Assembly: GCF_965363235.1 (NCBI RefSeq)
Contig: NC_134842.1
Coordinates: 38,654,458 to 38,718,457, forward strand
Length of the DNA: 64,000 nucleotides
Direction: 5' to 3'
Source: Mytilus galloprovincialis
Taxonomy: Eukaryota > Mollusca > Bivalvia > Mytilida > Mytilidae
A program made the translations under genes and the position numbers. Below the pieces are notes generated by a model, which was not told the origin of the DNA, ran no database searches, and saw only the letters and a program-made list of their open reading frames with translations. Positions 40,002-64,000 of this stretch are shown here, piece by piece; position 1 is the first letter of the stretch; each line of letters opens with the position of its first letter.

Positions 40002-43000
40002 ATGTTTTCAAGACTAGCAAAACCGAGTACTGTCACATTTATTGTTAGCAGGTCATTCTGCAAATCTTCACAGGTATAAGTCAAATTGAACGGACGCCAA
40101 ACAATAAGCGGGAATTAAAACATGTTTAAAAATGCATATCCTTGACAGTTGTGATCAGTCATGTCTGTTGTCGGTTGATGATGCAAAATTGCCTCATCAT
40201 CAATTTAAGCCAACTATCCTTGATCACAACACACGATACTTGTCTTTCTTAATTTTAAGTAGAGTGTGCAGCATTTGGATGTCTCTTCTTTTGTAAACTG
40301 TCAATGAGACAGTTGGTACATGATCAGCACTAGAACAGCTGATCCTGAAGGTTATTCATATTATTGCCTCTTATAATATTATTGATGCATGTATGCTTAA
40401 TTTTTCATTTTTTTAGATATTAGTTATATGGTTTCGAAGTTGATGAAAATTGTATGCTCCTGTATCAATGTGTATAATATTTAACAAAAAAAAAAATTAA
40501 AGTCAAGAAAAGAAATGAAAACTGCTAAAAGTTATCGCCAAGGGGTCAGTTAAAAAAATAAAACTAGTGTGTATTAAAAATATTTATTTATGCTCTCACA
40601 TTGTAATTACATTTAATCTAATTAAGCTTTTGATTCTGGGTCTTTCTTAAATCGGTTGACACATTCAAATTATCTTTCTGTAAACTTACATTGTCATTTC
40701 GGGGCCTTTTATAGCAGACTATGCAGTATGGGCTTTGCTCATTATTGAAGGATGTATAGCAGGGCTCACGCTACCAGGCGACTTGGGCGAAGAAGTCGCC
40801 TTCCCGACCGTCACTTCGCTTTCCCCGACCCCCAAAAGCGAAAACAAGTCGCCCTGTTCTTGACGATAGTCGCTTTCAGTCGCTTCCGTCATCGGACATT
40901 TTCAATTTTTACCAAGTTGATGAAACATCAATTTTTTATTGATAATTAAAGAAATTCAGACATAAACGATTCATTATCTTTAGAAAAGAGGTTGAAGCAT
41001 TGTCTTCGTAGTGTGTAGCATGTTATTTGATAAAAATACAACTTTTTATCACTTCGTGCATTTCTACAAGTTCCGGTGCTTGTTACTCGAAAACGTACAT
41101 CAACCTCAAATTCGGCGGCAACATCAGTTTGTTACTTCATTTAAACGTGATAAAAGTTGCCTCCAGTAAATTTTTAATCCATTTATTGCATTAAAAACGT
41201 CATGTTCCTTTCCAAATAACTTGTCAAACATCGTTTATTTTTGTAAATTTTCTTGCATTCGTCCGCCATTGACCGATTTCTAAACTCCGGATCTGAACCG
41301 GACCAGCTATGACCGAAATCCGTACTTTTACAATAATTACTACAGACGCACGGATGGAACAGCTGACAGAAGAATATTGATCCCAAAGGGAAAAATAAAC
41401 ATTCCACACGCATTAAAAGACTTTTGGTAACATCTAATTGATTGGCGTATATAATTCCCTATATTTTTTATGGATTGTTTCAAACTATTGATTAAAGTTG
41501 CTTAACTCTGAGACTATTATACTAATATCAATATATTCTGGCCCAGCTTAATAACTTTTATATTTTTTTTATGAGAAACACTGAATGTCATACACAAGAT
41601 AATTTTTAATTAAATTGTAATTGATATATTATAATTTCTTTACATTTTTTAAAATAATTTTTTTTTTTTAGTGCTAGATATTTAGTTGGTAGTTTCTCAC
41701 TGAGACTACTATAACACATGTGTTATAGTAGTCTCAGTTTCTCACAAGAACCTTAGTAAAACTTAAACAACTTTTAATTTCAAATGTTACTTTAATTGTA
41801 ATTTTTTTACTCAGATATGAATTGAACAATATAAAAAGAACATTATTTACATATGGCCCTTTATACTATTGTAAAATCCAAACATTGTATCGCACCGCAC
41901 GAATGAGCACTTCTCTTTCAAATCTCACCACTTCTCCCTATCAGTTTTAAAAAGAGAAGTCACTTCTCCCTATAATTCTGAAGTAGTGTGAGCCCTGGTA
42001 TAGTGACCTATAGTTGTTAATTTCTGTGTCATTTTGGTCTGTTGTGGACAGTTCTCTCATTGGCAATCATACCACATCTTCTTTTTTATATTTGGTGATA
42101 ATTTAATTTCTACATAGTATTCACTAGTAGATTTGCTTATAAAGTGTCCTTTCTATTCTTAAACATATGGAGGGATGTTAAGTGCACTGCTTCCTTAACA
42201 CTTTTAAATGTAATGAGTCTTTGTTTCCGTTTCATTGCCCTGATTTGCACACACTAAAAAATTGTATCAAATTAAAGCCAATTATAATTTATTTCATATA
42301 CATGTATCTATATCATTTATATATGAAAGAACTTTTTTTGTACCATGTTAATGATATAAACTAGTTTGAATTATTATCAATTCAGTTTCAGAATATACAT
42401 CATGTACATGGAAGTAATAAAATATATATCATTAATTGATTTCTTTCAGGCTTGGCAGTCTCCAAAAGTTGCTGTACTTGGAGCCGGTGGTGGTATTGGT
42501 CAACCTTTATCTTTGCTTTTAAAAAATTCAGCAAAAATAGCAAGTCTGTCGTTATATGATATTGCTCATACACCAGGTGTCGCTGCTGATTTAAGTCATA
42601 TTGATACAAGAGCCCATGTCACTGGTCATCTTGGTCCAGCATCATTGGAAGCATGTCTGACAGATGCAAGTGTTGTACTGATACCAGCTGGTGTTCCAAG
42701 AAAGCCAGGTAAGTTTAAATAAAACTGAGAATGAAACAGGGGAATGTGTCAAAGGATTTTTGTGCAACCATACAGTATGAACCCTTCTGGGTGCTGAATT
42801 TTTTCACTGCATTTTCTTCTCTTTGGTCAGGTGCTTGTCTCTTTGACTCATTCCCTGTTTCCATTCCCTATTCCCAATTCTACATTTAATGAGTTTTTAT
42901 TTACAATAGTTACTAACACGTGACTAACTGGTTAATGAGAATTTTGGAATTTGTTTCCCCCTTACAAGCATGAATAAGTTTTCAGAAACGTACAAACATG

Positions 43001-46000
43001 ATGTACATGTACAGTACATGTAAATTTGAATAAACCAAACCTTTCCCAAATACAACTTGTAGAAACCAAACTTAAACATGTGTTAAAAGGTATTTCATGT
43101 ATTTACACACATAATAAATTTGAGTGAATTGAAGGATTTGCCTCAAATAATCTTGTTAGGGTATAATAAACTTGTGATGCATGTAGTCTGCACTAATAAC
43201 TTTTTCAACTACTAGTCCGAAGAACAATATTTTGACATTTTTCTTATGGGTCCAAACAAAGTTTTTCAAAAACTTGCTAGTCCAAATGAAACTTTACTAG
43301 TCTTGGGCATTGGACTAGTGGCTAACCATGCAGACTGTTAAGCATGGCAGTGGTATGTTCAAATTTCTTAAGAGTACATTCTCAATTTCATTGTGCTCTG
43401 GTGACGAGAGAAATACAAAATGATCTCTTTAAAAGAAAGCAGAAAAGATGTAGTATGATTGCAGTAACATGAAAACACTATCCACAAAAGTCTAAAAGGA
43501 TACACCAAAGTGATTCTAAACATTCATATCTGAGAAAGTTAACTCTGGTGTCTGTTTTAAAGTTGAAAACTACCTAATTATACTTAAAAAAGATGAAAGA
43601 ACTTAGATTAGGCCTTCAACAAGGTGCCTTGGCTCACACCAAACAGCAAGCTATAAAGGGCCCGAAATTACTAGTGTCCTGACTTAGGATAGGTGCTAAC
43701 AAATAGCAGGTTTAAACGTTTTAAAGCTAATTCCCTGATGCTTGTACCATAAAACTTAGGTTGGCTTGCTTGCTTTGTTTGTATAAATGCATCTGTGTTT
43801 GCTCAAGCTTTGTAATTGAGATTGACATCTTCAAACAATATAGATAGGCATAGTTAAACCTGTATATATTATATTTAGATTTGATTTGACATTATCCCTA
43901 TACCAATTGTACAATATACAAACAAAGACTTCTGCTGTTGTCTGCTCTATGGTCGGGTTGTTGTCTCTTTGCCACATTCCCCATTTCCATTCTCAATTTT
44001 AAAGCAAGCAAGTTAATCATTGGCTTGCTCTGCATGCATTAGGAAATTAGCTCTAACAGGTGCCAACCTTCACCCTAACTGAACCATTAATAAAACATTA
44101 CAATATAGGATGACACCCTATAAGATATGAAGCATTGTTATGAACAAACATGCTGGTACAAAACATAATTATTTAATAATATTTATAATTAATTCATTGT
44201 TAACATATATTTAATATTGAAGGAATGACAAGAGATGATCTGTTCAACACAAATGCTGGAATTGTCAGAGATTTAGTGTCAGCCATCGGAGATTTCTGTC
44301 CAAAAGCCATGATCTGTATCATTACCAACCCGGTTAGTATTGAAATGTTACTACTCTTTTTTTGAGTACAAGATTGTCAAGAAGTTATATGAAATGAATG
44401 CAGTGTTAATTATTTAATATTGCACTTTATTATTGGGATTCAATGAAAGTGAAAACATAAATGCAAAAATTCCAATATAAAGGCATTTTTGTTTTAACTG
44501 AAATAAGATAAGGGCTATTCCAGAAAAAAATGTATGGGGGTGTTGGAAGGCACTTTTTGTCAGCCCCCACCACCCAGACAATTGTAATTGAGACTATAGT
44601 GCATTATAGTGTGAAAAGTTGCTCTGATACCCATCACCCATGTATTATTAATATAATGTGCCTTCCAACCCCCCCCCCCCCCCCCCCCATACATTTTTTT
44701 CTGGAATAGCCCTAATGAAATGGTCAAAGGTAAAAAATTGATATAAAATGAAAAACAGCAATATCATAATAAAGGGAGACTATAAATCATTATCAAATTT
44801 CATTTGCCGGATATTTAGTGATGTGGTATTGGTTTTAAGATAGAAGAACTCATAAAAAAAATATTAATAAATGTTGATTATATTTATTATATAAAAGTGT
44901 AAGAAGTTATATATGCAGCAATTTATTTGTAATATTTAATATTTGCTTTTCTTACCAAGGTTAACTCCACAGTGCCAATAGCCGCAGAGGTTTTAAAGAA
45001 GAAAGGAGTATATGATCCTAGACGTCTATTTGGTGTTACAACATTAGATATAGTTAGATCAAATGCATTTGTAGCAGAAGCTAAGGTTTGTGTTTTGTAT
45101 TTAACACATTTGATTTGTGCATATATTTTACACATGAATTGAATTGACTTGTTTAACACATTTGACAGATACTGTGGATTTAGTAGGTACAGGTTAACCA
45201 GGGCTTCCAAAACGGTCATATATTCCTGACATTTGATTAATGTCCGGTAGAAGTCCGGCTGGGCAAAGCATGAAACGGTCATATACATTTTAGTTTTCAA
45301 GGCTTTTTCGGTCATTTTAACATAGTCTCGATCTTTTTGACCCAACCTTAATTTTGCCTTTAACATCTACACATTTCCGGTCATAAAAGTGACATGATGA
45401 TTAATTACTATCAAAACAACCCCTACTTCAATACTTTCTAATTTTAATCAAGGCTAATTAGTTGTTGGACAGGTGATATCTACCTGTTCAGGTGACAGGT
45501 AAACTATGTTCAGTATCGGACATCGTATTAATTGATCGGTCTAGTCACAATTATTTTCTTACATTTCAGCGGTTTGTAGCTCATTGATTTAGTCCAAAAG
45601 ATTAAAATTATAAGAAATTAGTTTATCTACATGATTTGATAAAAAATTTTAAAAGGTTTAAATGAAAAATCGTCAGAACTACGTCGAATGAACTAGAACA
45701 AGTGTGCGCATGTGCAAAGGTGGGAAATTCAATTATGCATCCTTTATTTCTTCAAAATGCTAAAATTATCATTGATACCTGTATCTAAACGTTCATTTCA
45801 AGCATTTTGTTGAAGAAATAACGTGGAAAGAGCTTCTTCACTCAGTCATGCTTTGCAAACATACACGGATTTTACGTATCCGTTTACGGTCCATGTTTTA
45901 CCATTGTCAAGTCAACATCTGGTTTTAGAAAAACGTGATTTTAAAAACGAAAATGAAGTTTTTGACATGTCATTTTGCACAAATAAAGAGTCTATGGCAG

Positions 46001-49000
46001 ATATGAGCATGCTGATGTGCACACTTTGAATGATGCACTGCCAATTTAAGAGTTTACATCCAAAACAAAGTAAAGTTTAAAATCGTTTTTTAATCTAATG
46101 TCATTATCATTGGAATGGCCATCTGATTACCATAATTGCCTTTTGTGACTTAGTCTTAAGGGATTAAAATCGGGATCAGATATAAAATGTCCGGCTGGCT
46201 CAAATGTTTTTTGGAAGCCCTGAGGTTAACCATGAATTTAAATGTTCAACAGAGTACAAATTTTCTTTATGTTAGTTCGCAGATTTTTTTAAATACAACA
46301 AAATCATTCATCCACAAAAATATTATTTCCTATAATCCACGAAAAGTGATACCTATGGAAATATATGAATTCACAGTAGACAGGGAACAAAATTGTTCAT
46401 TTGTTACAGTGAAATAATTTTGTTCATTTATCAGAAGCCCTTGACAAAAATCTGAACAGCACTCTTCTATTTCTATTTCCTGTTATCCTATTGGAGACCT
46501 TCTTATAAATATCTGTCCTAGTCAATGATCTGCTAACTAATTTTTTTTAATTAATGGCACATTTTTTTAATATAAGGTTGGGTATATAGCAAAGAAGGAT
46601 AGTCAATGATGAAAATACCAAACATTGAACATGATCATATATTATTTATATAAATCAATTTAGATTGTAGTTGTGTTAGTCATTGGTAGGTATTTTTAAA
46701 ACCAAGATGCTCTCTCCGAGGAAAATTCAATCGGAAAGTCGCTAATCAAATGAAAAAATCAAATGACAAAACAAAATAAATTAACAGTGCATATTTTTCA
46801 ATCAAATGTATCGACCTTTCGTATTATAATTATGAATTAGGGTGATAACAAACAGGCCATTCATTAAGAGGCGGTACCCGGTACTTTTACCCTCCTATGC
46901 TATTGACAAGTACCGCCTAAATGTAGAAATTTTTATATAAGTTATTCATGGAATAAATTGAAAAGTACCACCTAGAAACGTGGAAGTACCAGTCAACATG
47001 AAAGAAAATGAAACCCCTGAATTATAACAATGTAAATGTGTTTTCATTGCAGGAATTGGATGTATCTAAATTGAATGTTCCAGTTATGGGTGGACATAGT
47101 GGAGTAACAATTATACCTGTCATCTCTCAAGCCAACCCAAGTGTTTCATTTCCACCAGTAAGTACCATAGATAACTGTTAAAAATATTATTAATCGGTTA
47201 AACAGATATTGAGGAACAGAAAATATATAAAAAGTATAGCAGATCAATGGTAAATAAATCCTGTTTGGTTACATTTGTATTACAGTTAAATTTCATAACA
47301 AATAACAAAAACATATTTTTTCTCAAAAAACATAAAAAGTGCCTTCCATTCCCCAATACATTTGTTTTTGGAACAGCCTTAATATATTTGACTCATCATG
47401 TTCATACTCAGATTCTGGTAGTAGTTTATTTTTTCATTACTGAATATAACACTGTTTTGTAGGAGGAGAGAAAGAAACTTTCTGAGAGAATACAGAATGC
47501 TGGAACAGAAGTGGTAGAGGCCAAGGCTGGTGCTGTAAGTGAATCACACAACCTTCATATGTACATGTATACACCCATGACACTCTGATTATATTTTTTG
47601 TTTTTTTTTTGTTGGAGAAAATATTTGCAAATTGCTATATATTCTTAAACTCTGAAAAATATCTAACACTTCATATTATATGTCTTATAAATACTTTGTT
47701 ATTTGGTAAACAGGATATCACTTTCATACTTTTATTGAACGAGATGAACTTACAATCAAGTTGAAAAAATCACCACACACGTAAACTCTTTTGAGTCACT
47801 ATCTGCCTTTTTTTGCATCAAAAATTTTAATTTGGTAAAAGGAGATGAGGAGTAAACCAAGTTCAGAGATCATATTAATACATCAAGGGTTTTTACCAAA
47901 AAATAGACCTAATGGTCACTATAAGGTCATAAAACATTTAACCAAATTGCTAGGCCTAAGTGGTCCTGAATTAAGTACCTTTTAGTTCCACCTACATTAC
48001 TAATGGGATAAACTCATAATTTAATTTTGTACTAATATGTATAAATTGGTAATGATATGGTCACTTTTACTATTGCCTGTATAAATTTATATTACTCTTG
48101 TCTTTTGATACTTTAAAAGGAATCAATACTACAACTAATCATACTATCACTCAAAGCATACTGTATAAGGTTTATATCTATAACAGTGCTTACATTAAAA
48201 TATACTTTCTTAAATGTAGATAATGGTCAATATATGCATTTGAATAAATATAGTGTTGTCTTCTCAAATATTAACACTATTTTGCAGTATTATTTAAATA
48301 CTTTCTGGTTTTTTTTTCCAGGGATCAGCAACCTTATCTATGGCCTATGCTGCATCAAGATTTACATTTTCACTGTTAGAAGCTATGGCTGGAGGTGAAG
48401 GTCAAGTAGAATGTGCATATGTACAGTCAGAAGAAACAGATGCTGCTTTCTTCTCAACGCCTCTCTTGTTAGGTGTAAGTATAAAAATAAGAATATATAC
48501 ATGTAGTATGATTGCCAATGAGAAAACTCTCCATCCAACACCAAATGACTTAGAAGTTAGCAGTTATAGGTCACCATACAGATTCATTTATTAGCAAAAC
48601 TATACCACATAGCAAGCTATAAAAGCCCCTGAAATACAAATGTAAAACAATTCAAACGAGAAAAAATAACGACCTGATTTATATACAAAACAACAAATGA
48701 AAATCTAATAATATTTACAGCAAAACAAATATAATATACAGTAGCAAACAATCATCACTAAGTCACAGACTCCTGACTTGGGACAGGCATAAATAAAATA
48801 TATTTATGGGTGCCCAACCTTTTCCTGACTTGGGAGAATACTTACAATTACTGAAAGCAAGTTCAAAGTCTAAATAAACAAGTAAAAGAATCATCTATTG
48901 AAGAAAGTTTACATTGAAATTTGAAAAAAAATTCTTCACAACATTTTTAGTTGTTCATTTCATAATTTTGTGTAGATTTTTTTTTAAATTTTATGTTCAA

Positions 49001-49459
49001 AAGTAAATTGAGGTGGGTTTTTTATGTTTTAGTATTTTAAGACGCTTTTTAATTTGAAATTTCTTTTTATTATTAAATACCTGAAAATATAAGTTTCTTA
49101 TTGTGCATATTTTGTATAATCTGAGAATGAAAGTTACAAGTATTAGAAACTTCAAACACTCAGTGTTACAATGAATACCAATGAATGTAGTAACTTTACT
49201 AAGACTAAAAGCTAATTTTGATTTATACATTTTTGTTTTGCCTCTATTGAAGTAAAATATGTTGGTTTTATCTTTGTCTTATATCACAGAAGTATAAAAT
49301 TAAAAATGCTATTTTATTCTTATTTTCTAGAAAAATGGTGTTGAAAAGAATCTTGGTAGAGGAAAACTCATTGACTACGAAATGCAGCTCTTAGATGCCG
49401 CTATGCCTGAACTTAAGAAAAACATTCAAGCTGGAGTTGACTTTGTAAACAAATCATAG
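40002..49459 (+). CDS. MDH2: Mitochondrial malate dehydrogenase, complete
   Basis: NAD-dependent malate dehydrogenase (malate to oxaloacetate) of the mitochondrial matrix, acting in the TCA cycle and malate-aspartate shuttle. Eight exons join in frame: 40002-40073, 42450-42708, 44223-44332, 44960-45085, 47053-47157, 47463-47534, 48322-48474, 49331-49459. They give 341 residues, close to the usual 338. Exon 1 encodes a mitochondrial targeting peptide ([20 protein letters not shown]: Arg/Lys/Ser-rich, no acid). Exon 2 has the NAD loop GAGGGIGQP and the cofactor Asp in LYDI. PRKPGMTR gives the substrate-binding arginines across exons 2-3. ITNPVNST and GGHSG (catalytic His) follow, and the C-terminus is the MDH2-type AGVDFVNKS. 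All introns are GT/AG. The ATG at 40002 is chosen because only it provides the transit peptide. A related second gene begins at 63592. Confidence 0.97.
40760..41997. mobile_element. hAT-like element with a 6-bp target duplication
   Basis: A 1,238-bp element with ends CAGGGCTCACGCTAC and GTAGTGTGAGCCCTG (one mismatch), flanked by GTATAG on both sides (40754-40759, 41998-42003). Joining the flanks restores the R1 repeat. No transposase. The 6-bp duplication is short for hAT (8), so the superfamily is uncertain. Confidence 0.85.
41692..41745. mobile_element. 36-bp perfect palindrome within a 9-bp direct repeat
   Basis: Bases 41701-41736 are a perfect 18+18 inverted repeat (TGAGACTACTATAACACA facing its complement, no loop). 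GTTTCTCAC precedes (41692-41700) and follows it (41737-41745). It looks like an insertion with a 9-bp target duplication inside the element at 40760-41997. Confidence 0.8.
43158..43345. mobile_element. Possible MITE in MDH2 intron 2
   Basis: TAGTCTGCACTAATAAC near 43182 faces GGTTAGCC/CAGACTGTT-type sequence near 43320-43340, with ACTAGTCC and its complement repeated inside. Weak ends; boundaries approximate. Confidence 0.4.
43447..44090 (+). repeat. Dispersed mussel repeat R1, diverged copy
   Basis: GATGTAGTATGATTGCAGTA, later GGCCTTCAACAAGGTGCCTT and GCTCACACCAAACAGCAAGC. MDH2 intron 2. Confidence 0.5.
44512..44712. mobile_element. PIF/Harbinger-like MITE with a C20 tract
   Basis: A 201-bp foldback element with ends GGGCTATTCCAGAAAAAAAT and the complement, flanked by TAA on both sides (44509-44511, 44713-44715). 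A run of 20 C occupies 44669-44688. A decayed relative (GTGCCTTCCATTCCCCAATA) is near 47340. MDH2 intron 3. Confidence 0.9.
45199..46222. mobile_element. hAT-like element with a perfect 8-bp duplication
   Basis: A 1,024-bp element with ends CAGGGCTTCCAAAA and TTTTTTGGAAGCCCTG, flanked by AGGTTAAC on both sides (45191-45198, 46223-46230). No transposase frame, so non-autonomous. MDH2 intron 4. Confidence 0.93.
48507..48835 (+). repeat. Dispersed mussel repeat R1 near a splice donor
   Basis: GTAGTATGATTGCCAATGAG followed by AAACAATTCAAACGAG and GACTCCTGACTTGGGACAGG. It starts 32 bp after the MDH2 exon 7 donor, in intron 7. Confidence 0.65.
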
Positions 49460-50644: not shown

Positions 50645-51725
50645 TCGAGCCTGCAACTTTTGTTGCAGAAAGCTCGACATAGGGATAGTGATCTGGCGGT
50701 GGCATTAGCTAACTTCTTAAAAGCTTTATATTTTAGAAGGTGGAAGACCTGGATGCTTCATACTTTGTATATAGATGCCTCATGTTACAAAGTTTCCGTC
50801 AGTCACATGTCCAATGTCCTTGACCTCATTTACATGGTTCAGTGACCACCTAAAAAAAAAGTTCAGATTTATGTAATGTTGAATTCTCTCTTATAAGTAA
50901 TAGTAATAGGATAACTATATTTGATATGTGCATACCTTGCAATGTCCTCATGTCTGTCAGACAGTTTTCACTTGACCTCGACCTCATTTCATGGATCAGT
51001 GAACAAGGTTAAGTTTTGGTGGTCCATATCTCAGATACTATAAGCAATAGAGCTAGTATATTCGGTGTATGGAAGGACTGTAAGGTGTACATGTCCAACT
51101 GGCAGGTGTCATCTGACTTTGACCTCATTTTCATGGTTCAGTGGTTATAGTTAAATTTTTGTGTTTTGGTCTGTTTTTCTCATACTATATGCAATAGGTC
51201 TACTATATTTGTTGCATGGAATGATTGTAAGGTGTACATGTCTAGCGGGCAGATGTCATGTGACCTTGACCTCATTTTCATGGTTCAGTGGTCAAAGTTA
51301 AGTTTTTGAGTTTTTGGTCTTTTTTTCTAATACTATATGCCATAGGTCAACTATATTTGGTGTATGGAAATATTTTATGATCTTTATGTCAGTCGTGCAG
51401 GTTTTATTTGACTGTGACCTCATTTTCAGTTCATTGCACAGTGTTAAGTTTATGTGTTTTTGGTCTATTTTTCTTAAACTATAAGTAATAGATCAACTAT
51501 ATATCATGTTGTATAGAAGCATTGTTAGCTGTACATGTCTGCCTGGCATGGTTCATCTGACTTTGACCTCATTTTCAAGGTTCATTGGTCTTTGTTTAGT
51601 TATCTTGGTTAATGTTAAGTTTATGTGACAGTTGTAATAAAGCTTAGCTTTATATTTAGGACTATCAACATAATATCAATGATTAGTATAGAAGGCGAGA
51701 CATTTCAGCGTGTGTACTCTTGTTT
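50645..51725 (+). mobile_element. Mussel repeat R5 with internal tandem units
   Basis: Starts GTCGAGCCTGCAACTTTTGT, whose first 35 bases are a hairpin, and ends AGTATAGAAGGCGAGACATT. In between, blocks of about 180 bp recur with TGACCTCATTTTCATGGTTC and CATATACTATATGCAATAGG variants (about five units). Downstream of MDH2. Confidence 0.7.
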
Positions 51726-53722: not shown

Positions 53723-54610
53723 ACTCTGCTTATCATTTACACAAACAAAGCTTAAATTGAAGGCCACCATCCAGATTCCATGATTAACAAGTTTATTTGC
53801 ATCTGAAATACGTTAAACCGGTATTGTTTTATATTTTTTATATATCCCAAAAGTGTGTTATCCCGTAAAACCTTCAATTTTCCTTATCGACAGTGAAATG
53901 TGTGGCTTGGTGCCTTCTCTTTAATCAAAATAATACCAAATATACAAACGACATCACATCAAACTTTTTCGATAACAGATACTGCTTTGGAAAAAAAATG
54001 AATATAAAAGTTTAATGTAAACAGCAGAACTACGAATGATCTAGTAGTTGCATGCCTAATCACTAACATGCATCATCATGATTAAGATTCTAGAAATACA
54101 CAGAAAAGGCAGCTAAGGGAAAGGGAGCTATGATTTTTTATTATGTAAGGTTTGTTTCTCTTCTTTTTGATGTCCGATTGTTCATGTAGTCAAACTACAG
54201 TTATCACTGATGGTGTGTGTTCGAATTTAATAACCTATAGTGCGTAATTACTAGAAGTTTCTCTCATGGCTGGTGCGTTCACCGTCAATTTTAATTAACT
54301 ATAAGTTAAGGTACTTTTCTGGCACCCAGCTTCCTCGACCAATAAAAACTGCCAGTCACGATAGTGCTTGCTGAAACTTGCGCTTATCATCAACAATTAA
54401 TACACAAACAAAAAACCTGTAAAACCAACAGATCATCGCGATAACTAAACAATTTCTATAATAAAAGTATGACCAATTTACTTTGCAATTGCTTCATTTC
54501 ATGACCTGCTGGACAAAAATGGGTTATTATCCGCTGTTGAGGAGTATGCCCGGGGTGGGGGGAGGGGGGTTGTTACCCGGTACTTCCCATATTTTTAGTG
54601 GTATTAGTGT

Positions 54611-54765
54611 GCCGCAAAATAAGGGTTTTTTTTCGTGCCCTGTTGGTAAGAACAGGGTTCCTTTTTCACGTTCTACTGAATAGAACAGGGTCAATTTTTC
54701 ATGGCCTGCTGGTGAGTACAGGGTCACTTTTTCATGCCCTACTAGTGAGAACAGGGTCTTTTTTT
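54611..54765 (+). repeat. 33-34 bp minisatellite
   Basis: Four to five units of AACAGGGTCACTTTTTCATG plus about 14 bases. Translation shows the same repeat (variants of LLVRTGSLFHA), which explains the open frame here. Not treated as coding. Confidence 0.85.
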
Positions 54766-54822
54766 AAACAAAGTATTTGTCTAGTACAGGATCGCTTATT
54801 TAACTGTTTAATAATAATTACA

Positions 54823-54878
54823 TTCAAAATTATTAGAAACGGACCCTTTCACATAGACCCGTTTCTAATAATTTTGAA
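54823..54878. repeat. Inverted repeat, 22-bp arms
   Basis: TTCAAAATTATTAGAAACGG and its complement are separated by about 14 bases. Confidence 0.8.
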
Positions 54879-55150
54879 AAGGAAGGAGTTTGACTTTAAA
54901 TCTTGAATTATGCACAAAATGTTATTAACAAAAGAAAGTTTACGTCGAAACCATGTAAGTATGGCTAATACTGTTCTAATTAAAGCGGAAATAATTATCA
55001 TTTTGGTGGAAAAAGAGTTGCACAACACATAGTCACTAGTTTAAAATGCTAATTAAATATAAAAGGAATACATGTTCGTTGGAATAAGTGGTTTCTAGAT
55101 GACAAAAAAATATCCGAGGATTCCGTGGACACAGCAATTGTATCACTTAC

Positions 55151-55203
55151 CTAACAGATTTGTCTAAATCATCATTATTCGGATCGTCGTCCGAGTCCAT
55201 CAT
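55151..55203 (-). CDS. Candidate first coding exon of an unidentified gene
   Basis: ATGATG starts an acidic peptide, MMDSDDDPNNDDLDKSV, followed by a perfect donor (TTAG|GTAAGT). The surrounding bases are less AT-rich than the neighbouring repeats. I do not recognise the protein. Downstream exons would lie at lower coordinates; two exon-like segments are listed separately, but intron phases do not join this exon directly to the nearest one. Confidence 0.4.
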
Positions 55204-55559
55204 AGGAAAAACGCCGAAAGTCACCGTTGGTTATGTCGGTTAAAAGCTCATATTGTTTGTCTATGTTTTATATACCATGCCGACTCTAAATAAAGCTTAT
55301 TTATTATATTATTATGTGGCAGTATCCGTTTCCGCCAGAAGTGGCCGTTATGGTTAAACACCGTGATGCAGCATGACTAGCACACCACCGTTCATTTTCA
55401 TCAAAGAGCTACTCATTGAATTAGTAAGGGGGGTCCCAATAACAGCAAAACAGCAAATTGATTTGGCTTATAACAGATAACAAGGAATTAAAATGGACAA
55501 AAACAGATAACAGTAAATGAAATATTAAAATAAGTCAGTTCCTGGACTGATTGAAAGAT

Positions 55560-56100
55560 TATGTCTCCATCATATGAAAATCAAGCACAATCCCTCCAGT
55601 TGCTGAATGTTTCCATTAATTGTAACTCATAACAATACAGAAACAGGTCTGCAATACGTGGTGCACAGTTAGTCCCCATAAGAATTCTGATAACTTGACG
55701 ATATATGGAAACTCCATAGCAGACAAAAATGATATTTGTAAAAAAAAATTAAGGGCAGACATGGTATCAAACAATCTTATTAAAAACCGATCTCTCATCG
55801 CTCCTGTTTCTGATATGTCGCGTGGGAGCTCCCACGCGACACATCAGAAACAGGAGCGATGAGAGATCGGTTTTTAATTAGATTGGGTATCAAAGCAGGT
55901 CCAATTGACATAGTTCTTTTGTTTGTTATTACTAAAAAATGACCTGAAAGAGTTTGAATATATATATTTGCATTCTGATTTTTTTTTAAATGCACATTCA
56001 ATGCATGAGGTGTGTGGTTTTTTCTTAATAAGACTATGACCACAGAGGTATATAGGGTAGAAAAATCAAAATCACCAATTATAAGCATGCAATTTATCAA
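55560..56100 (-). pseudogene. Penelope-like element reverse transcriptase fragment
   Basis: Minus-strand pieces match Penelope-type RT: FDFSTLYTS (about 56080-56040) and, in another frame, YRQVIRILMGTNCAPRIADL (about 55700-55640) followed by FLYCYE. Frameshifts, a stop and the 114-bp insertion at 55772-55885 interrupt it. Endonuclease and ends not seen. Confidence 0.7.
55772..55885. mobile_element. 114-bp foldback insertion with a 9-bp duplication
   Basis: Nearly the whole element is an inverted repeat around GTGGGAGCTCCCAC, with arms of about 55 bp starting CAATCT. It is flanked by GGTATCAAA on both sides (55763-55771, 55886-55894). A 9-bp duplication suggests a Mutator-like source. Confidence 0.88.
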
Positions 56101-56534
56101 GTACTTTGAACTAATTTTGAAACTCCAAAAGTAATTTATTCCACTATTTTCAAAGGCTATATTTGAACAATGTATTATCAGTTTTTTTAAGTGAACTAGT
56201 AAGTAGAATACATGATAAAGTAGTGGAACAATGGCTTGAAGACGAACTAAATCTTTGTTTGTAATGAGTTATGTGCAGCTTCAGAACCCAGGACATGGTT
56301 GAAACTTTTATTGTACAATGTATTTGGTTCTGCTTTGAAAAGAATCACAGATCTGAGTCTGTGTACTTTATTATATATGGTTGAAAGGACCTAGTCCTTA
56401 ATTGACATCCTCATCAGATATCCCTAGCCATATATTTCCTTTTTGTCATATTAAGAATTGTTCGAATTTAATATTAACGTACTGGAAACGAGGAACAATG
56501 TCCCCATACGGAAAAAGTTACTACATAGATATAG

Positions 56535-56690
56535 GAAGATGTGGTATGAGTGCCAATGAAACAACTCTCCATCCAAGTAACAATTTATAAAAGTAAACCA
56601 TTGTACATGTAGGTCAAAATACAGCTTTCAACACGGAGCCTTGGCTCACACTGAATAGCAAGCTACATGTTCATAAAAAAAAATAGATTA
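56535..56690 (+). repeat. Dispersed mussel repeat R1
   Basis: GATGTGGTATGAGTGCCAAT followed by GGCTCACACTGAATAGCAAG. Confidence 0.6.
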
Positions 56691-56899
56691 CAAAGGATAA
56701 TCATAAGATATACCGGAGATGTCCTGGACCTAACCGTTCTATTAATATGTTTATGTGATGATCTGTGATGGGTATATGTTTATGAAATCCTTCACCGAAT
56801 ACGGGACCACCATATTACTAGTGGTAGACCCCAATGTTCAACAATCTTCAATTTTTACCGAATATTGGCTGTCAAAACAAATGCTAACATTCCAATTTT

Positions 56900-57065
56900 C
56901 AATAACAGTTAACAACAAATACATTATCACAATAACAGATAACAAAATCCTAATAGTCCAATAACAGCTAACAATGAATAAGACAATAACAGCTAACAGC
57001 AAATATATTTTCAGAATAACATATAACAAAGAATCAAATTGCCCCATAACAGCATAACAGTTAAA
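56900..57065 (+). repeat. Short AATAACAG-type tandem repeats
   Basis: AATAACAGNTAACA recurs about six times with 25-35 bp spacing. The same word occurs at 55437-55525 in the same orientation, so both may be ends of one degraded element enclosing the Penelope-like fragment. Confidence 0.6.
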
Positions 57066-57129
57066 CCCCTTGCCCCCCTCATATATGTAGCGGATCATAC
57101 CCCAAATCACTGATACAGTTATCAAACAT

Positions 57130-58440
57130 GCATAAATGCATTTTAATATATGATGTAATTAAAAAGGAGGGTAATTTTTATATAAAATCTCGCAAAAATT
57201 ATGACCTATATTTTTGGCACATCCCCGCATACCCAATAATAGAAAGTTACCACCCTCCCACCCCCACACCCATACCACCCCGTGACCCTATATTCTTTTT
57301 ATTGTCATAAAACTACTGATATTGATTAAACAAGAGCAGGAGAATTTGAAGTAAGTGAAAATTATAAATGAAAAAAATCTTTACAATACTGCAAAAAAAC
57401 TGGGACTATTATACTAAAATTAAGTCCCAGAAAAAAACTAAAAGCCGGGAAAGAAAAAAAAGGGGGGCAATGCCTCAAGTACCTGTGTTGTATTGACTTG
57501 TCTTAAGAAAACATTGGTGAATTCTCTCAATATAGGGACAATAATTGAAACAATATCTTATGTTACCGGTTTATAACAGACTTTGATAAATAGTATAGTT
57601 AAAGCTCCTCATAGAATGAGACCAGTTCAGCATGTTTCTGTCCCCTACCTAAAGGTCTCCCAATAATTACAGCTGACCTTTTCACAATGTTTACCCGTCT
57701 TGCAAAGCCAAATCATGACATACGGTCAATTTTACAGAAATCATTTTCTATCTCATCACAGGTAATGTAATTATTCACAGATCAACCCATTCGCAGGTTT
57801 TGTGAAGGTCAAAGCCAATAATTTGTCAAAGTAGCGACCGTAGCCGGTGACGGTGTGGGAAAAATTAAATTTTGTAAACTAAATGACTAAAATTATGTAT
57901 GGATTACCTGGAAACAGTATATATGTTCCTGGAACTCGCATTAAACATGAAAAAGGCATCATCATCATCATGACATAAGTAGTGGATCCAGAGATTTTTT
58001 ATTATGGAAAAGGGGAGCTGGGGAGGAGGACTTAATAGAGTGGGGCGCCAATATTCGCCGGGGATACAATTTTGACGTTTTATGATTTTGAAGTGTAAAA
58101 ACTTCAAAGGATGGCTGAAATCGGAGAAATATACCAGTAAATAATATATTTGTAACAAATATGATCATTTTTTAAACTTAGACAAAATTTCGGCACTTAC
58201 TGCAAAGGACCGAAAAAAGGACAACGACTTACGGCCAATTTCCCGAATGAAAAACACAACATCAAAGAAGTATTTCTTAGTAATTCTTTGACTGATTGCC
58301 CTAAATTTAAGTTTATTTAACACCTTTGAAATGTCGATCTGCAATTCATCTATGTTGGTTGCTTAAAGCCTAGTGGCAAATATTTCATGCATATTCAGGA
58401 CGAGAACAAGTTCACAATAAAAACTATAGGTAGGTCTTGA
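57130..58440. other. Intergenic DNA, no gene seen
   Basis: AT-rich with C-rich (57250-57290) and G-rich (58010-58030) patches. AGTGGATCCAGAGATTTTTT near 57982 resembles the left end of the MITE at 25802, but no right end is visible. Confidence 0.4.
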
Positions 58441-58780
58441 AATGATAGAGGACATCTGTTATGATGGTCGGGGAAATTTGGACTGCCACTGTAAAATGAG
58501 GGTATATTGGATAGGGACAGAAATTTTGCCTTGCAACAGGCTACCTACGGACCCCTCAAAGAGTTGTTGCAATGGTTCTTCACATGCAAAGAGCGTGGCA
58601 CTCTCCTTACACGAGGCATCAGATTTAACGTCACCAATCTGACCGGACGTGAATGCAAACTTGATACATCCCGCACAGCCAAACGGACGCCCCACTTCAG
58701 CAAGCGTTTACTGCCAGTCGGAAGAAGACCAAGTGCACATATTTCTATTCCCCAGTCACCCTTGGGGGTCATATAATGAA
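58440..58780. repeat. GC-richer island open on both strands
   Basis: About 340 bp clearly richer in G+C than its surroundings, with overlapping open frames on both strands (58442-58776 plus, 58459-58772 minus). It has the look of a conserved dispersed-repeat fragment. No family assigned. Confidence 0.35.
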
Positions 58781-59239
58781 ATTGAATTGATAAGTCTTGT
58801 TTAAAGCTGCAGTTATTTGATTTTAAATAGATGTATAAAAACGGCGAATATGTCTCCCCTTTGACAAAACATCAGGAAATTTCAAATAGCCTTTAATCTA
58901 ACTTTTCAGATGATTTTTTTTCAAAGAGACATGTTTTCAAGCTAAGAATATTTTGCTTTTCATGTTATCTTCATATAGAAATAGTATATTAACTTCAAAA
59001 ACATAAAGACCTCAACATAAACTACAGAAAACATGGTTTTTTGTGGCGTAATGAGCACCCCACTCTACCTGTAAGATACCTGTAAGATCGTTGTAGGGCT
59101 CATATGGAAGGATCCTATCCTTTTTAGCCCACCATATTTTGGTACATTTTCAAAACTGATACAATCATCAATCCTGCATGATTTGGTGCAATATTTCACA
59201 CAATTAAAAAGTTATATAGAAAACTATTTGTGTCCTCAT

Positions 59240-62200
59240 CAATTACTTAAAGTTCTGATACATGACTGACTCCCATTGACAGTCTATACCAATTTTAAAA
59301 GCTTCCACAATTTTTGATGAAATAACTTCAACTGGTAGGTTATTCCTTAATAAAACATTGTGAGAAATGTCTTAATCGAAAAGAAGTGTTACGTCTAGGT
59401 TTTGCTAATTTCCAATTATTCCCACGGGTATTTGTACTGATGACAGTAAAAAATCTTTCATAAGATATATCTTCGATTCCTTTTAATATTTTAAAAGCTT
59501 GTATCATATCACCTCTTCGCCTTCTTTTTTTTTTTTTTTTATAAAATAAATCTTTTATTGCACATTTCTCTGCTGATTACAACTTACTCGACTCACAGCA
59601 TTCAGTCTGGCCTTGCGGTCATAAAACTTTCGAGTCAGTTTTTTGTACTCATACTCCAAAATCAACCAATCAAAATGCTGGATTTCATCTTTCGAGCCTG
59701 ATTTTTGTGCTCCGAGCACCGAGCAAAGTTTTATGACTTCAACCCCAGGTATCCCTGTAAATTAGTTACTGTTTAACCAGGGAGATTATACAGTAAAAAT
59801 TATTTCTATTAAATGTGATTAGTTATACAATATTAATATATAAATACATTCATTTTGACAATTTGTTTTTTACAGTTTCGTCATATTACATAATTACAGA
59901 ATTTGTACTATTTATTGTCCGATATTGTTTATAAATTAATCGTTGGCCTCTTCTTCTTTCATACATTCCATGTGCGTTCGTACCAACGCAACGTATAGTC
60001 TTAAAAATGTATATTGATCTTTAAAGTTAAAAGTTTGGTTAATCAGCCCAAGTATACTATTGGCTTTAATAATTTTACTTGATATATGTTGTGAAAATTT
60101 AAGATCATTTTGACAAATAATTCCAAGATCCTTTTCTTGTTCATCTTTAGTGATAGCAATATTGTTCATGGTAGAAACATTTTCAGGATCATTTCTTCCA
60201 TAGTGGATTTGTTTACATTTGTTCACATTAAATGTCTAGATCATTTTGTAAAACATCAGATTTAGAAGTAGGTGCATAAATTTTGGTATCGTCTGCGAAA
60301 ATTTTTACTATAGACTCCACAACATCTGGTAAATCATTTATGAATATAATAAAAAATACAGGTCCTAGTACACTGCATTGAGGCACTCCACTAATTACAT
60401 TTTGCCAGTCAGATTTTTCTCTTTTCACCGCAAATTGTTGTTGACATTCTGTTAAAAAGTCAGTTATCCATTCTAATATAGATCCATGAATACTGTATGA
60501 ATACAGTTTCTTTAATAATCTTTTATGTGGCACTTTATCGAAAGCTTTGGCAAAATCGAGATATAATGTGTCCCAGGATATATTATTATCCATATATAAT
60601 GACCAGTCTTCCATAACATAAAGTAATTGTAATATACATGATCTATCAGAGCAAAAACCAAACTGTGAGTCTGATTACAAATTATTGGTTATTTAAAAGT
60701 GATCAATCATTTCCTTCCATATAACCTTTTCCAAAGTTTTGCAAACAATTGAAGTTAGACTGACCGGTCTGTAATTTCCCGCATCCAGTTTACTACCTTT
60801 ATTCCTTAAAAGTGGGGTAACTCTAACATCTTTCCATTCTCTAGGAATTTTTCCAGTGTCAATGGACTTTTGAAATGTCAAAGTCAAAGGTTTTGAAAAT
60901 GTAATTGCCATGTCTCTTTACTATTAACGGATGAATATTATCTGGACCCATAGACTTGCTTCCATTTAATAAAAGTAGATATTTTTCAACTGTGTCTTGA
61001 TTGATCACAAAGTGGTCTAAAGATCATGATTCAAAATTTCTCTCTTCAATATTAGGTATATCATTTGGATTTTCAGCAGTAAATACAGTGGTAAAAAAGT
61101 CATTTAACACAGTCGCTTTTTCCTTGTCAGTAGTAGTTAAGTTCCCATTTGGTTTCATGAGGTTTGATACTGCTGATTTTGATTTCACTTACTTTTGACA
61201 TGCAATTGTATGTCCAAAAATGTTTCGGCTCAGTTTTAACTTTCGATGCCACTAACTTCTCATATTCCTTTTTTGCTTTTCCAACGTTCTCATTTGTCCT
61301 GTTTCTATCATCTTTATAAAAATCAAAATCTACTGCTCGTCTAGTAGCCTGGTATCTTGACCAGGCCTTTTGTTTGCGTTTTATATTGCTCAGACAATCA
61401 AATGTTAGCCATAATGGTTTAGGTTGACAACCCGGTTTAAGATTAGTTTTTGGTACATATGTTTCTACACATTTTTTATATTTATCAGAAAATATTTTCC
61501 ACATCTCGCTTATGTCTTTATCTTCAAAAGAACTATCCCAATCAAAATTGCTAAAGACTTAAGTCTTCAGAAAATTTTTCAAAGTCACATTTGGAATATT
61601 TATATATTTCGATTTACCAGTTTCATATTCATTGAAAGAGTAAAAGTCAAATGTAATGGTAGCATGATCACTAAGTCCCAGTGGAGCATCAATATTAATA
61701 TTGTCAATATTGCTTTCATCTTTTGTAATAACTAAATCTAGAGTTCTACACATCTGATTTTCCCTAAATCTTGTAGGTTTATCTACATCATGTATACGTT
61801 GATATAGAAAATTGTCATGTAAAGCTTCAATAAAAGTATGTTCGTAATGGTCCTCAGAGTGAGGTGAAGTCCAAAAATTCCAATCAATATCATGCATATT
61901 AGTCTCCTGTTATTAAATTATTGTTATACAATCAAGCTGCTTCATTCAAAAGTCCAATAATATTTAAACACAAGTTTTGATCTGATGGGCTTCTGTATCT
62001 TGAGCCTATCAACACAGTCTTATTGTCTTTTACCCAATTACACCATGAAGCATCATCATAAAGCAAATTCATATATTCATTTGGTGAGACGCAAATGACT
62101 TTTTGCATAAATAATAACTCCCCTTCCTGTATTTTTACTCGGATAAGCTGTATAGCCTTCAATGTTAAATAATGGAGAAGTGCAATCTATATCAATATTT

Positions 62201-62335
62201 GTTTTAGGCAAAACTTCTGTTATAAGATAAAATCTGGTTTCACGATCTGTATTTGTGCTTCAAGTTCATCAATATTTTATTACGTAATTGATCAGCATTG
62301 GTGTACATACACTTAAGTTAACTTTGTTTACAATT
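59240..62335 (-). mobile_element. CR1-type LINE, broken
   Basis: Minus-strand fragments in order: endonuclease start (YTNADQLR, about 62310; 62250-61932), endonuclease end with LSDHATI (61897-61559), linker (61504-61127), RT with GNYRPVSLTSIVCKTLEKVI (60911-60693), RT core DFAKAFDKVPHKRLLKK and FADDTKIY (60614-60228), the following block (60226-59936), and a C-terminal domain (RGDMIQAFKILKGIEDI, TRGNNWKLAKPRRN; 59518-59240). Frameshifts and stops between pieces and an insertion at 59519-59935 make it inactive. Confidence 0.88.
59519..59935 (-). mobile_element. Retroposed insertion with an A-tail inside the LINE
   Basis: A run of 19 T (59526-59544) on the plus strand abuts the LINE C-terminal coding region, as a poly(A) tail of a minus-strand retroposon would. 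The body includes the block shared with 53650-53722. The LINE resumes at 59936. Boundaries approximate. Confidence 0.55.
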
Positions 62336-62365
62336 AAAGGGTTGTCTGTACTTTCGGAAGTACTA

Positions 62366-62662
62366 TATAATAAGGGTTATTGCATGAATATTGGGGATTA
62401 TTGTCCCGCGTAGAATTTTATATTGCACGAGCTTGCGAGTGCAATATATGTTCTACGAGGGACAATATTCCCAAATATTCATGCAATAACCCTTTTATTG
62501 TATAGCAATATAATATTTGAAAGTAAAAATTGTTTTAAACTAAAATTTGGTCGTTGGTGACGTCATGAATTTTGAAGATTTATTGCACTAGTGCAATATA
62601 AGAATTTATTGCACGCTAACTTTTGGTTACTTTCTGTGGGAAATATTATATTGCTATACAAT
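62366..62662. mobile_element. Double foldback MITE
   Basis: AAGGGTTATTGCATGAATAT (62381) faces its complement ending at 62495, closing on TATATTGCACGAGCTTGCGA. A second pair, ATTGTATAGCAATATAATAT (62498-62517) and its complement (62643-62662), encloses a GTGACGTCA (CRE-like) word. Just upstream of the LINE 5' end. Confidence 0.75.
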
Positions 62663-63591
62663 AATATCACTTATCACACTACCATAATCGTTTATATCAT
62701 CAGTTTCACTTGCATTGTCATTTTCTGCATTATCAAAATTATTATCAAAATTATTAAAAAATGCATTATCTTGCATACTATCGTTAGTACTTTTGGATGT
62801 ACTGTATATATGCAAAAGAGGTACTCCCTTCATCTAGTCCAATAATTTAAGACTTGGGAGTTTCATATCATTTACATTCATTTACCTTCAACTTGTTTTA
62901 TCAGATATTTTATTTTACTATCAAGGTTAAAACCCTTATTTCAACATTGATAGTAAAAAAAAAAATCCAATGGAGCAATTTTTGAAGGCCTTGCTCAAAT
63001 ACTTAAAAGATCTTTGAACAATCAGTTTCTTTGATGAATTAATGAGATGAAACATTGATCTCTAATAAAAAAAATATGAGCTAACCTGGGAAAAATCATT
63101 AAAGGCATTGATATTACATCTCAAAACTTGAGAATTTTCGTGGGATTGTAAGAAAAATTTACTTATTCAAGTGAAATTTTGTGAAAATTAAGGGGAGATT
63201 ATTCAAACCTCATAATAATCTTATGTGTATTTTTTTTTTACTTCTTCAAGTAAGTATAAATTTCATGAACAAGAAGTACCCCTGACTGACTGTGTTTTAC
63301 TACCTTATGTAGAAACACTTTGATGGAATATTTAGGCATTCATGGAAGCATGTCTGGAGCTGGCCCTCTCTTAGGATCTGCCCCCCTCTTAGGATCTGCC
63401 ATTGATAATCACTTCTCATTAATGTATTTGAATCTCAGGTAATACATTTATATAGACTTTTAACGGCCATCAAATCATAGACTCTCAGTATTCTTGTTAA
63501 TGGTGTTAAAATCCTTCAGGTATTAACTAATAACCACCATCCTCATGATCTCTTCTTAGTAATATTACACACATATATTTGAATCTTCCAG
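62663..63591. other. Upstream region of the MDH paralogue exon, no exon seen
   Basis: AT-rich DNA. I looked here for a first exon encoding a mitochondrial targeting peptide and found none. GGATCTGCC is duplicated near 63375-63402. Confidence 0.4.
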
Positions 63592-63913
63592 GTGAAAAAT
63601 AATCACCAACATCCCCATCGTCACCATCCTGTTCACCACCATCAACATCCTGTCCACCATTCACCACATAAAGTTGCAGTACTGGGAGCAGGAGGGGCTG
63701 TTGCTCAGCCATTGTCTCTACTACTGAAAAATTCCTCCAAAGTTGGCAGGCTATGTTTGTACGATGTTGTTCACTCACCAGGTGTCGCTGCAGACTTAAG
63801 TCACATAGATACAAGAACTGTTGTTACTGGTTACCTAGGCAATGTACAGCTGGAGCCCTGTCTATCAAAATCTGATGTTGTACTTATAACAGCTGGAATT
63901 CCTAGAAAACCAG
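63592..63913 (+). CDS. MDH paralogue exon with histidine-rich N-terminus, partial
   Basis: One exon of a second malate dehydrogenase-like gene. It is an open 322-bp exon with a TTCCAG acceptor and a CCAG|GTAAAT donor. The acceptor is phase 0 and the donor phase 1, the same as MDH2 exon 2, so the two genes share exon structure. The first 27 residues contain 12 His (HPHRHHPVHHHQHPVHHSPH), where MDH2 has only AWQSP. After that comes typical [43 protein letters not shown] and AGIPRKPG. The third Gly of the NAD loop is Ala (GAGGAVA versus GAGGGIG), but the cofactor Asp and PRKPG arginine are kept. An in-frame TGA just upstream means an earlier exon must supply the start; none is recognisable in the window. 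The remaining exons lie to the right. It may be a divergent isozyme or a decaying copy; the intact frame and splice sites favour a gene. Confidence 0.85.
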
Positions 63914-64000
63914 GTAAATTAAATGATCAATTGACAATCGGCAAACACACTACACATAAAACTTATACCACCACTGTTGAAATGTTACAGGCATTTTGTG

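Follow-up and report, generated by a model that had tools for sequence, protein, structure and literature searches.

A stretch of 64,000 nucleotides from the mussel Mytilus galloprovincialis (NCBI RefSeq assembly GCF_965363235.1, contig NC_134842.1, here C5:38654458-38718457; hereafter the window) carries an ordinary gene for mitochondrial malate dehydrogenase (MDH), MDH2, and the first two exons of a paralogue whose second exon opens with a histidine-rich segment, the head. As a whole, this gene can be described with moderate confidence as encoding a mitochondrial MDH pseudoenzyme whose head would bind metal and which would serve as a scaffold or regulatory subunit in the matrix. Judged from its residues, the protein is in all likelihood catalytically dead, and the pattern of its substitutions makes it equally probable that the gene is maintained. 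The gene appears to have arisen from mitochondrial MDH2 by tandem duplication and to have lost catalysis within the Mytilus lineage.

Catalytic residues of the paralogue

Proteins were sought with a query in which exon 2 was joined to the remainder of MDH2 and scored on the exon part only. Full-length annotated proteins occur in M. edulis (P0121, 400 aa), M. trossulus (P0122, 363 aa), M. coruscus (P0123, 313 aa), and M. californianus (P0124, 355 aa); those of M. edulis, M. trossulus, and M. californianus are intact, and P0121 is 100% identical to the window over exon 2. An unnamed database protein, P0001, shares the 12-His head, with 97% identity across the exon, and continues into intron sequence as a translation of genomic DNA would. 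The four Mytilus paralogues rank first among the best 120 of 7275 matches to P0122, and no other protein of 300-420 aa without the catalytic residues is among these 120. Thus, the gene seems restricted to Mytilus as far as these searches reach. The alignment was built from 233 gathered proteins, of which 223 of 300-420 aa plus human MDH2 gave 224 rows; the 10 outside this length range, which included P0126, were not aligned, nor were the 120 matches of an earlier exon search, the source of P0001. Both M. coruscus MDH models, P0123 and P0126, are without the exon after NP, and in P0126 GSATLS is preceded by an odd stretch; these oddities look like gene-model errors.

One source (PMC4109310) gives the catalytic residues of MDH as Arg109, Asp168, Arg171, and His195 in lactate dehydrogenase (LDH) numbering, which we mapped onto the present sequences by motif. 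Three motifs separate the paralogues from 219 comparison MDHs, a set made up of good matches to the paralogue or its exon that pseudo-MDHs elsewhere could escape: MTEDEQF stands in place of MTRDDLF, LNLSR in place of LDIVR, and GGN in place of GGH. The equivalent of Arg109 is Glu in 4/4 paralogues and Arg in 219/219 others, that of Asp168 is Asn in 3/3 (the M. coruscus model is without that exon) and Asp in 219/219, and that of His195 is Asn in 4/4 and His in 217/217, two others being gapped. The same three replacements are found in the paralogue of the genome from which the window comes. Furthermore, the pocket has changed from Leu112 to Gln and from Gly236 to Asp, and the glycine loop GGIG has become GAVA or GAVS. 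The substrate residue Arg102, Asn140, and the Gly-Ser-Ala stretch are kept, as are the other substrate residue, Arg171 (3/3, again without the M. coruscus exon), and the nucleotide-binding Asp, presumably the ligand of the ribose of nicotinamide adenine dinucleotide (NAD).

The same departure is seen more broadly. At 16 of the 82 columns that are at least 98% conserved in the other proteins, all paralogues with a residue in the column differ from the others; P0122 differs at 17 of the 82, the most divergent other proteins at 4, and M. edulis MDH2 at none. The Ldh_1_N and Ldh_1_C domains are present and the MDH fold is predicted to be intact. The protein lacks the residues of an active MDH and combines two marks of a pseudoenzyme, a kept fold and missing catalytic residues. 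An earlier note on the window had spoken of a tail on a dehydrogenase. That description is not supported by the full-length paralogue, whose decisive exons lie beyond the window and have lost all three catalytic residues (Arg, Asp, and His).

The alternative that the paralogue is an active MDH whose His tail responds to metal or pH would agree with the retention of Arg102 and Arg171 and with the scores of P0122 (381 bits) and P0124 (386 bits), both of which pass the 273-bit cut-off of the NCBIfam MDH equivalog TIGR01772. This candidate was rejected as extremely improbable because the equivalents of Arg109, Asp168, and His195 are all replaced. Since the TIGR01772 cut-off is passed, automatic naming hides the catalytic loss, and databases call the paralogue proteins malate dehydrogenase or MDH2. 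A warning for annotation follows: a protein can pass the cut-off and carry the MDH name, yet very probably be unable to run the reaction. In a blue mussel gill proteome study (PMC5302490), two mitochondrial MDH spots were matched to entries of other species, and the two genes are indistinguishable there.

In another reading, the pocket has been re-tooled, and the protein either catalyzes new chemistry on a new substrate or senses a ligand in a pocket whose charge is reversed. In that pocket, Glu, Asp, Asn, Asn, and Gln replace Arg, Gly, Asp, His, and Leu; several of these changed together on the stem of the paralogues and were then constant in the species that show them, and Arg102, Arg171, Asn140, and the nucleotide-binding Asp persist. 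However, the protein no longer has the family's general-base pair, and we know of no dehydrogenase of the LDH/MDH family that works without it. On this evidence, a re-tooled pocket seems improbable.

The histidine-rich head

The first 26 codons of exon 2 (63592-63669), upstream of the MDH core, translate as VKNNHQHPHRHHPVHHHQHPVHHSPH, in which 12 of 26 residues are His, or 12/27 if the first core Lys is counted. This exon translation bears out the earlier note's count of 12 His among 27 residues between acceptor and core. The exon begins at a phase-0 acceptor, tcttccag/GTGAAA (63591/63592), and its frame is open from 63592 to 63913, where the donor CCAG/gtaaat follows. At the equivalent place and the same phase-0 boundary, exon 2 of MDH2 (42450) has AWQSP, the five ordinary residues mentioned in the earlier note. 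Counted over the 26 residues that immediately precede the core, the four Mytilus paralogues have 12, 12, 9, and 8 His, compared with at most five in any other of the 224 rows, and the His density of the head exceeds chance. The head is predicted to be disordered, and with 8-12 His in heads of 19-26 residues it has the dense, accessible His stretch of poly-His metal-binding proteins. The closest PDB match of exon 2 is human MDH2 4wle, in which the alignment crosses the HHHHHH of the construct; we take this to be an engineered tag.

That the His block is part of the predicted protein, as first proposed, is supported by the open frame, by its position between presequence and core, and by its recurrence in four Mytilus species. 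In the M. edulis gene model P0121, the splice falls exactly at 63592, and the refutation that had been suggested, splicing to a downstream acceptor or stops in later exons, fails as far as it is testable, with the upstream exon found in the window and the downstream exons open. A downstream acceptor inside KVAV was rejected because its use would, judging from the sequence, remove the first strand of the fold. An upstream acceptor-like copy ending at 63519 was rejected as well, on account of an in-frame stop and of the M. edulis model, which uses 63592. This copy belongs to a decayed duplicate of the exon start that translates as VLTNNHHPHD and then, further on, reaches a stop in frame; therefore, only the acceptor at 63592 yields the protein.

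The head appears to have grown by duplication, at least in part. The earlier note's suggestion of a short-repeat origin holds with respect to recurrence: CATCCTGTTCACCA at 63625 appears again at 63646, 21 nt on, with one mismatch, and CATCCTGT(T/C)CACCA recurs at the same two positions and spacing. Also, the heads of M. coruscus (9 His) and M. californianus (8 His) have 19 residues and those of M. edulis and M. trossulus (12 His each) have 26, and this difference of seven residues between species pairs fits one 21-nt unit. A pure expansion of CAY triplets was rejected because the His codons are mixed (5 CAC and 7 CAT) and the unit is 21 nt long. The alignment score of the decayed copy was reached by 0/3000 window pieces and 0/2000 shuffles, and this copy shows a larger duplication as well. 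The ordinary MDH P0125 has HHSNHK right before its core, where the paralogue has HHSPHK, and this HHSNHK is a possible seed of the His head. In the intron just 5′ of the His exon (63356-63400), an 18-nt unit, GGATCTGCCCCCCTCTTA, is present in 2.5 copies.

These same observations lend themselves to an explanation in which the paralogue is a real, maintained pseudoenzyme and its head is a functionless low-complexity expansion tolerated at a permissive N-terminus. The seven-residue difference between species pairs fits slippage or duplication of the 21-nt unit, the exon start has a decayed duplicate 72 nt before it, and an ordinary MDH already has the small HHSNHK. Nevertheless, the head is dense in His in all four species (8-12), and the lone difference between the M. 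edulis and M. trossulus heads, at residue 27, spares the His residues, which is a weak indication given the few sites. A functionless head is thus possible, and we consider it rather unlikely.

Maintenance, history, and structure of the gene

Without constraint, columns conserved among MDHs would be expected to vary among the paralogues as much as any others. At the protein level, where this test was made, 3/101 columns that are at least 95% conserved in MDHs vary, versus 44/209 of the remaining columns (Fisher p 7e-6), and therefore the gene does not resemble a decaying pseudogene. In the genome of the window, the paralogue is intact, with eight exons and a spliced frame open for 363 codons. 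A pseudogene was rejected on the strength of these open codons, the canonical splice sites, and the constraint at MDH-conserved columns.

Phylogenetic trees unite the paralogues in one clade (support 100/100) beside Mytilus MDH2 (96/92; second tree, 98/92). A tree with an older duplication, in which Mytilus MDH2 falls with P0125 and P0128, narrowly escapes rejection (approximately unbiased test, p 0.051). The paralogue stem measures 0.65 or 0.53 changes per column and the tips 0.02-0.04, which suggests a burst of change after duplication followed by slower evolution. Between paralogue and MDH2, the NG86 method gives nonsynonymous divergence (dN) of 0.25 and synonymous divergence (dS) of 1.65, the latter being saturated.

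Several points weigh against a maintained pseudoenzyme with a useful head. M. edulis and M. coruscus differ at 27 positions of the paralogue and at 3 of MDH2 in the same 237 columns, a comparison from which the stretch of the M. coruscus MDH2 model that is misannotated was excluded; the paralogue evolves faster, and therefore the constraint on it is weaker than on MDH2. The three in-frame tandem copies of exon 5 described below could also signal loosening, and because its length varies from one species to another, the head is not fixed in its exact form. Also, the catalytic loss is itself read from sequence. The faster evolution, the catalytic loss, and the triplication of exon 5 would suit a decaying or unexpressed duplicate on its way to becoming a pseudogene. 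Such a fate is nonetheless very unlikely in view of the open frame and canonical splice sites, the intact proteins in three species, and the difference between 3/101 and 44/209 columns.

Exon 1 of the paralogue is homologous to exon 1 of MDH2 (40002) and matches P0121 at 25/25 residues. The extent of intron 1 (Table) follows because exon 1 ends in a phase-0 donor at 57761 and exon 2 starts at 63592; within it, a reverse-transcriptase fragment lies antisense at 60231-60674 (- strand; Pfam RVT_1, E 1.2e-16). Exons 3-8 lie beyond the window at C5:38719355-38727643, with GT/AG splice sites. Exon 5, which encodes the GGN motif, is present in three tandem copies (C5:38724407-38724733) that are 93-98% alike over 100 bases. 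Each copy ends in a GTAA donor and keeps the same frame, and depending on the donor the open frame encodes 363, 400, or 437 aa; the 400-aa product corresponds to the M. edulis model P0121, and the two-copy form of the window's paralogue differs from it at 4/400 residues. A genome search with P0122, in which only the best candidates were scored, gave 14 matches, all inside the two MDH genes on C5. A scan of 54000-64000 with Rfam gave 0 matches.

The 341-aa product of the neighboring MDH2 gene is found unchanged within M. edulis P0127. Together with the near-identity of the paralogue to P0121, this points to M. edulis or a very close relative as the source of the window. Both genes are on 93,901,275-base contigs in M. 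edulis and on 279,045-base contigs in M. coruscus, and they are probably neighbors in these species too. A 147-nt tandem repeat (51035-51590, 3.8 copies) lies between the two genes in the window.

Table. Positions of gene parts and repeats, counted from the first nucleotide of the window
Feature	Position	Strand	Remarks
Paralogue exon 1	57687..57761	+	presequence-like MFTRLAKPNHDIRSILQKSFSISSQ; phase-0 donor CAG/gtaatg
Paralogue intron 1	57762..63591	+	bounded by exons 1 and 2
Decayed copy of acceptor and His-exon start	63510..63546	+	72 nt upstream; 28/37 bases identical to 63582-63618
Paralogue exon 2	63592..63913	+	His head and start of NAD-binding domain; GAVA instead of GGIG; Pfam Ldh_1_N E 3.7e-19
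His-rich head	63592..63669	+	26 codons, 12 His
Two 21-nt units (HPVHHHQ, HPVHHSP)	63625..63666	+	15/21 bases identical in this register
Ordinary tandem MDH2 gene	40002..49459	+	8 exons, complete, 341 aa
MDH2 exons 1-4	40002-40073, 42450-42708, 44223-44332, 44960-45085	+	
MDH2 exons 5-8	47053-47157, 47463-47534, 48322-48474, 49331-49459	+	

Possible role and known systems

The gene, its head, the catalytic loss, the constraint, and the fold are established by sequence or prediction; import, dimer formation, metal binding, and a role are inferred. Exon 1 would direct the protein into the mitochondrial matrix, with cleavage near the junction of exons 1 and 2; residence in the matrix is quite probable. 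The mature form might dimerize in the manner of MDH, either with itself or with MDH2, each N-terminus of the paralogue bearing a disordered poly-His strand, and a partnership with MDH2 is put forward only tentatively. The poly-His strand may bind a transition metal such as Zn, Cu, Ni, or Fe, and whether the tail both binds metal and has a role is close to an even question. The dead pocket may still bind NAD and dicarboxylates without turnover, as suggested by the retained Arg102, Arg171, and nucleotide-binding Asp. Overall, the likeliest role would be that of a metal-binding scaffold or a regulatory subunit of the matrix. A more elaborate version, a genus-specific, metal-sensing regulatory subunit that forms mixed dimers with MDH2 while its dead pocket reads NAD and dicarboxylates and its tail reads the Zn or Cu load, is speculative and should be considered improbable. 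The rival explanations discussed above overlap in part.

If the paralogue is maintained and mitochondrial, it would offer a clean case in which the fold of a textbook enzyme of the tricarboxylic acid (TCA) cycle has been reused for another purpose. If the tail binds metal, the protein would be relevant to work on metal stress in a sentinel species, and a metal-sensing subunit, if real, would connect the TCA cycle of a filter feeder that accumulates metals with the load it carries. Both pseudoenzymes and His-rich tails belong to known kinds. No paper on an MDH that joins catalytic loss with a His-rich tail was found in one open-access library, as judged by titles and the beginnings of abstracts.

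There are a number of known systems with which the paralogue can be compared. The Helicobacter GroES protein HspA, SlyD, and HypB are housekeeping proteins that each carry a metal-binding poly-His extension on an ordinary fold. The added poly-His is the likeness, whereas these proteins are bacterial and have unrelated folds, and metal binding by the mussel protein is only proposed. Molluscan omega-crystallin is an inactive aldehyde dehydrogenase, and it is similar to the paralogue in that molluscs have retained a duplicated dehydrogenase that no longer catalyzes, although it belongs to another family and serves in the lens. To our knowledge, no His head occurs on plastid NAD-MDH. This enzyme provides a precedent for use as a scaffold: by the titles of PDB entries 8xku and 8j5d, its MDH body is a component of complexes outside central metabolism, the Ycf2-FtsHi motor and the BAM1-LSF1-MDH complex. 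These are plant systems. The nearest comparison is animal mitochondrial MDH2 (TIGR01772; PDB 2dfd, 1mld), from which the paralogue differs by the loss of Arg109, Asp168, and His195, by a glycine loop of GAVA or GAVS rather than GGIG, and by the addition of a His-rich head of 19-26 residues.
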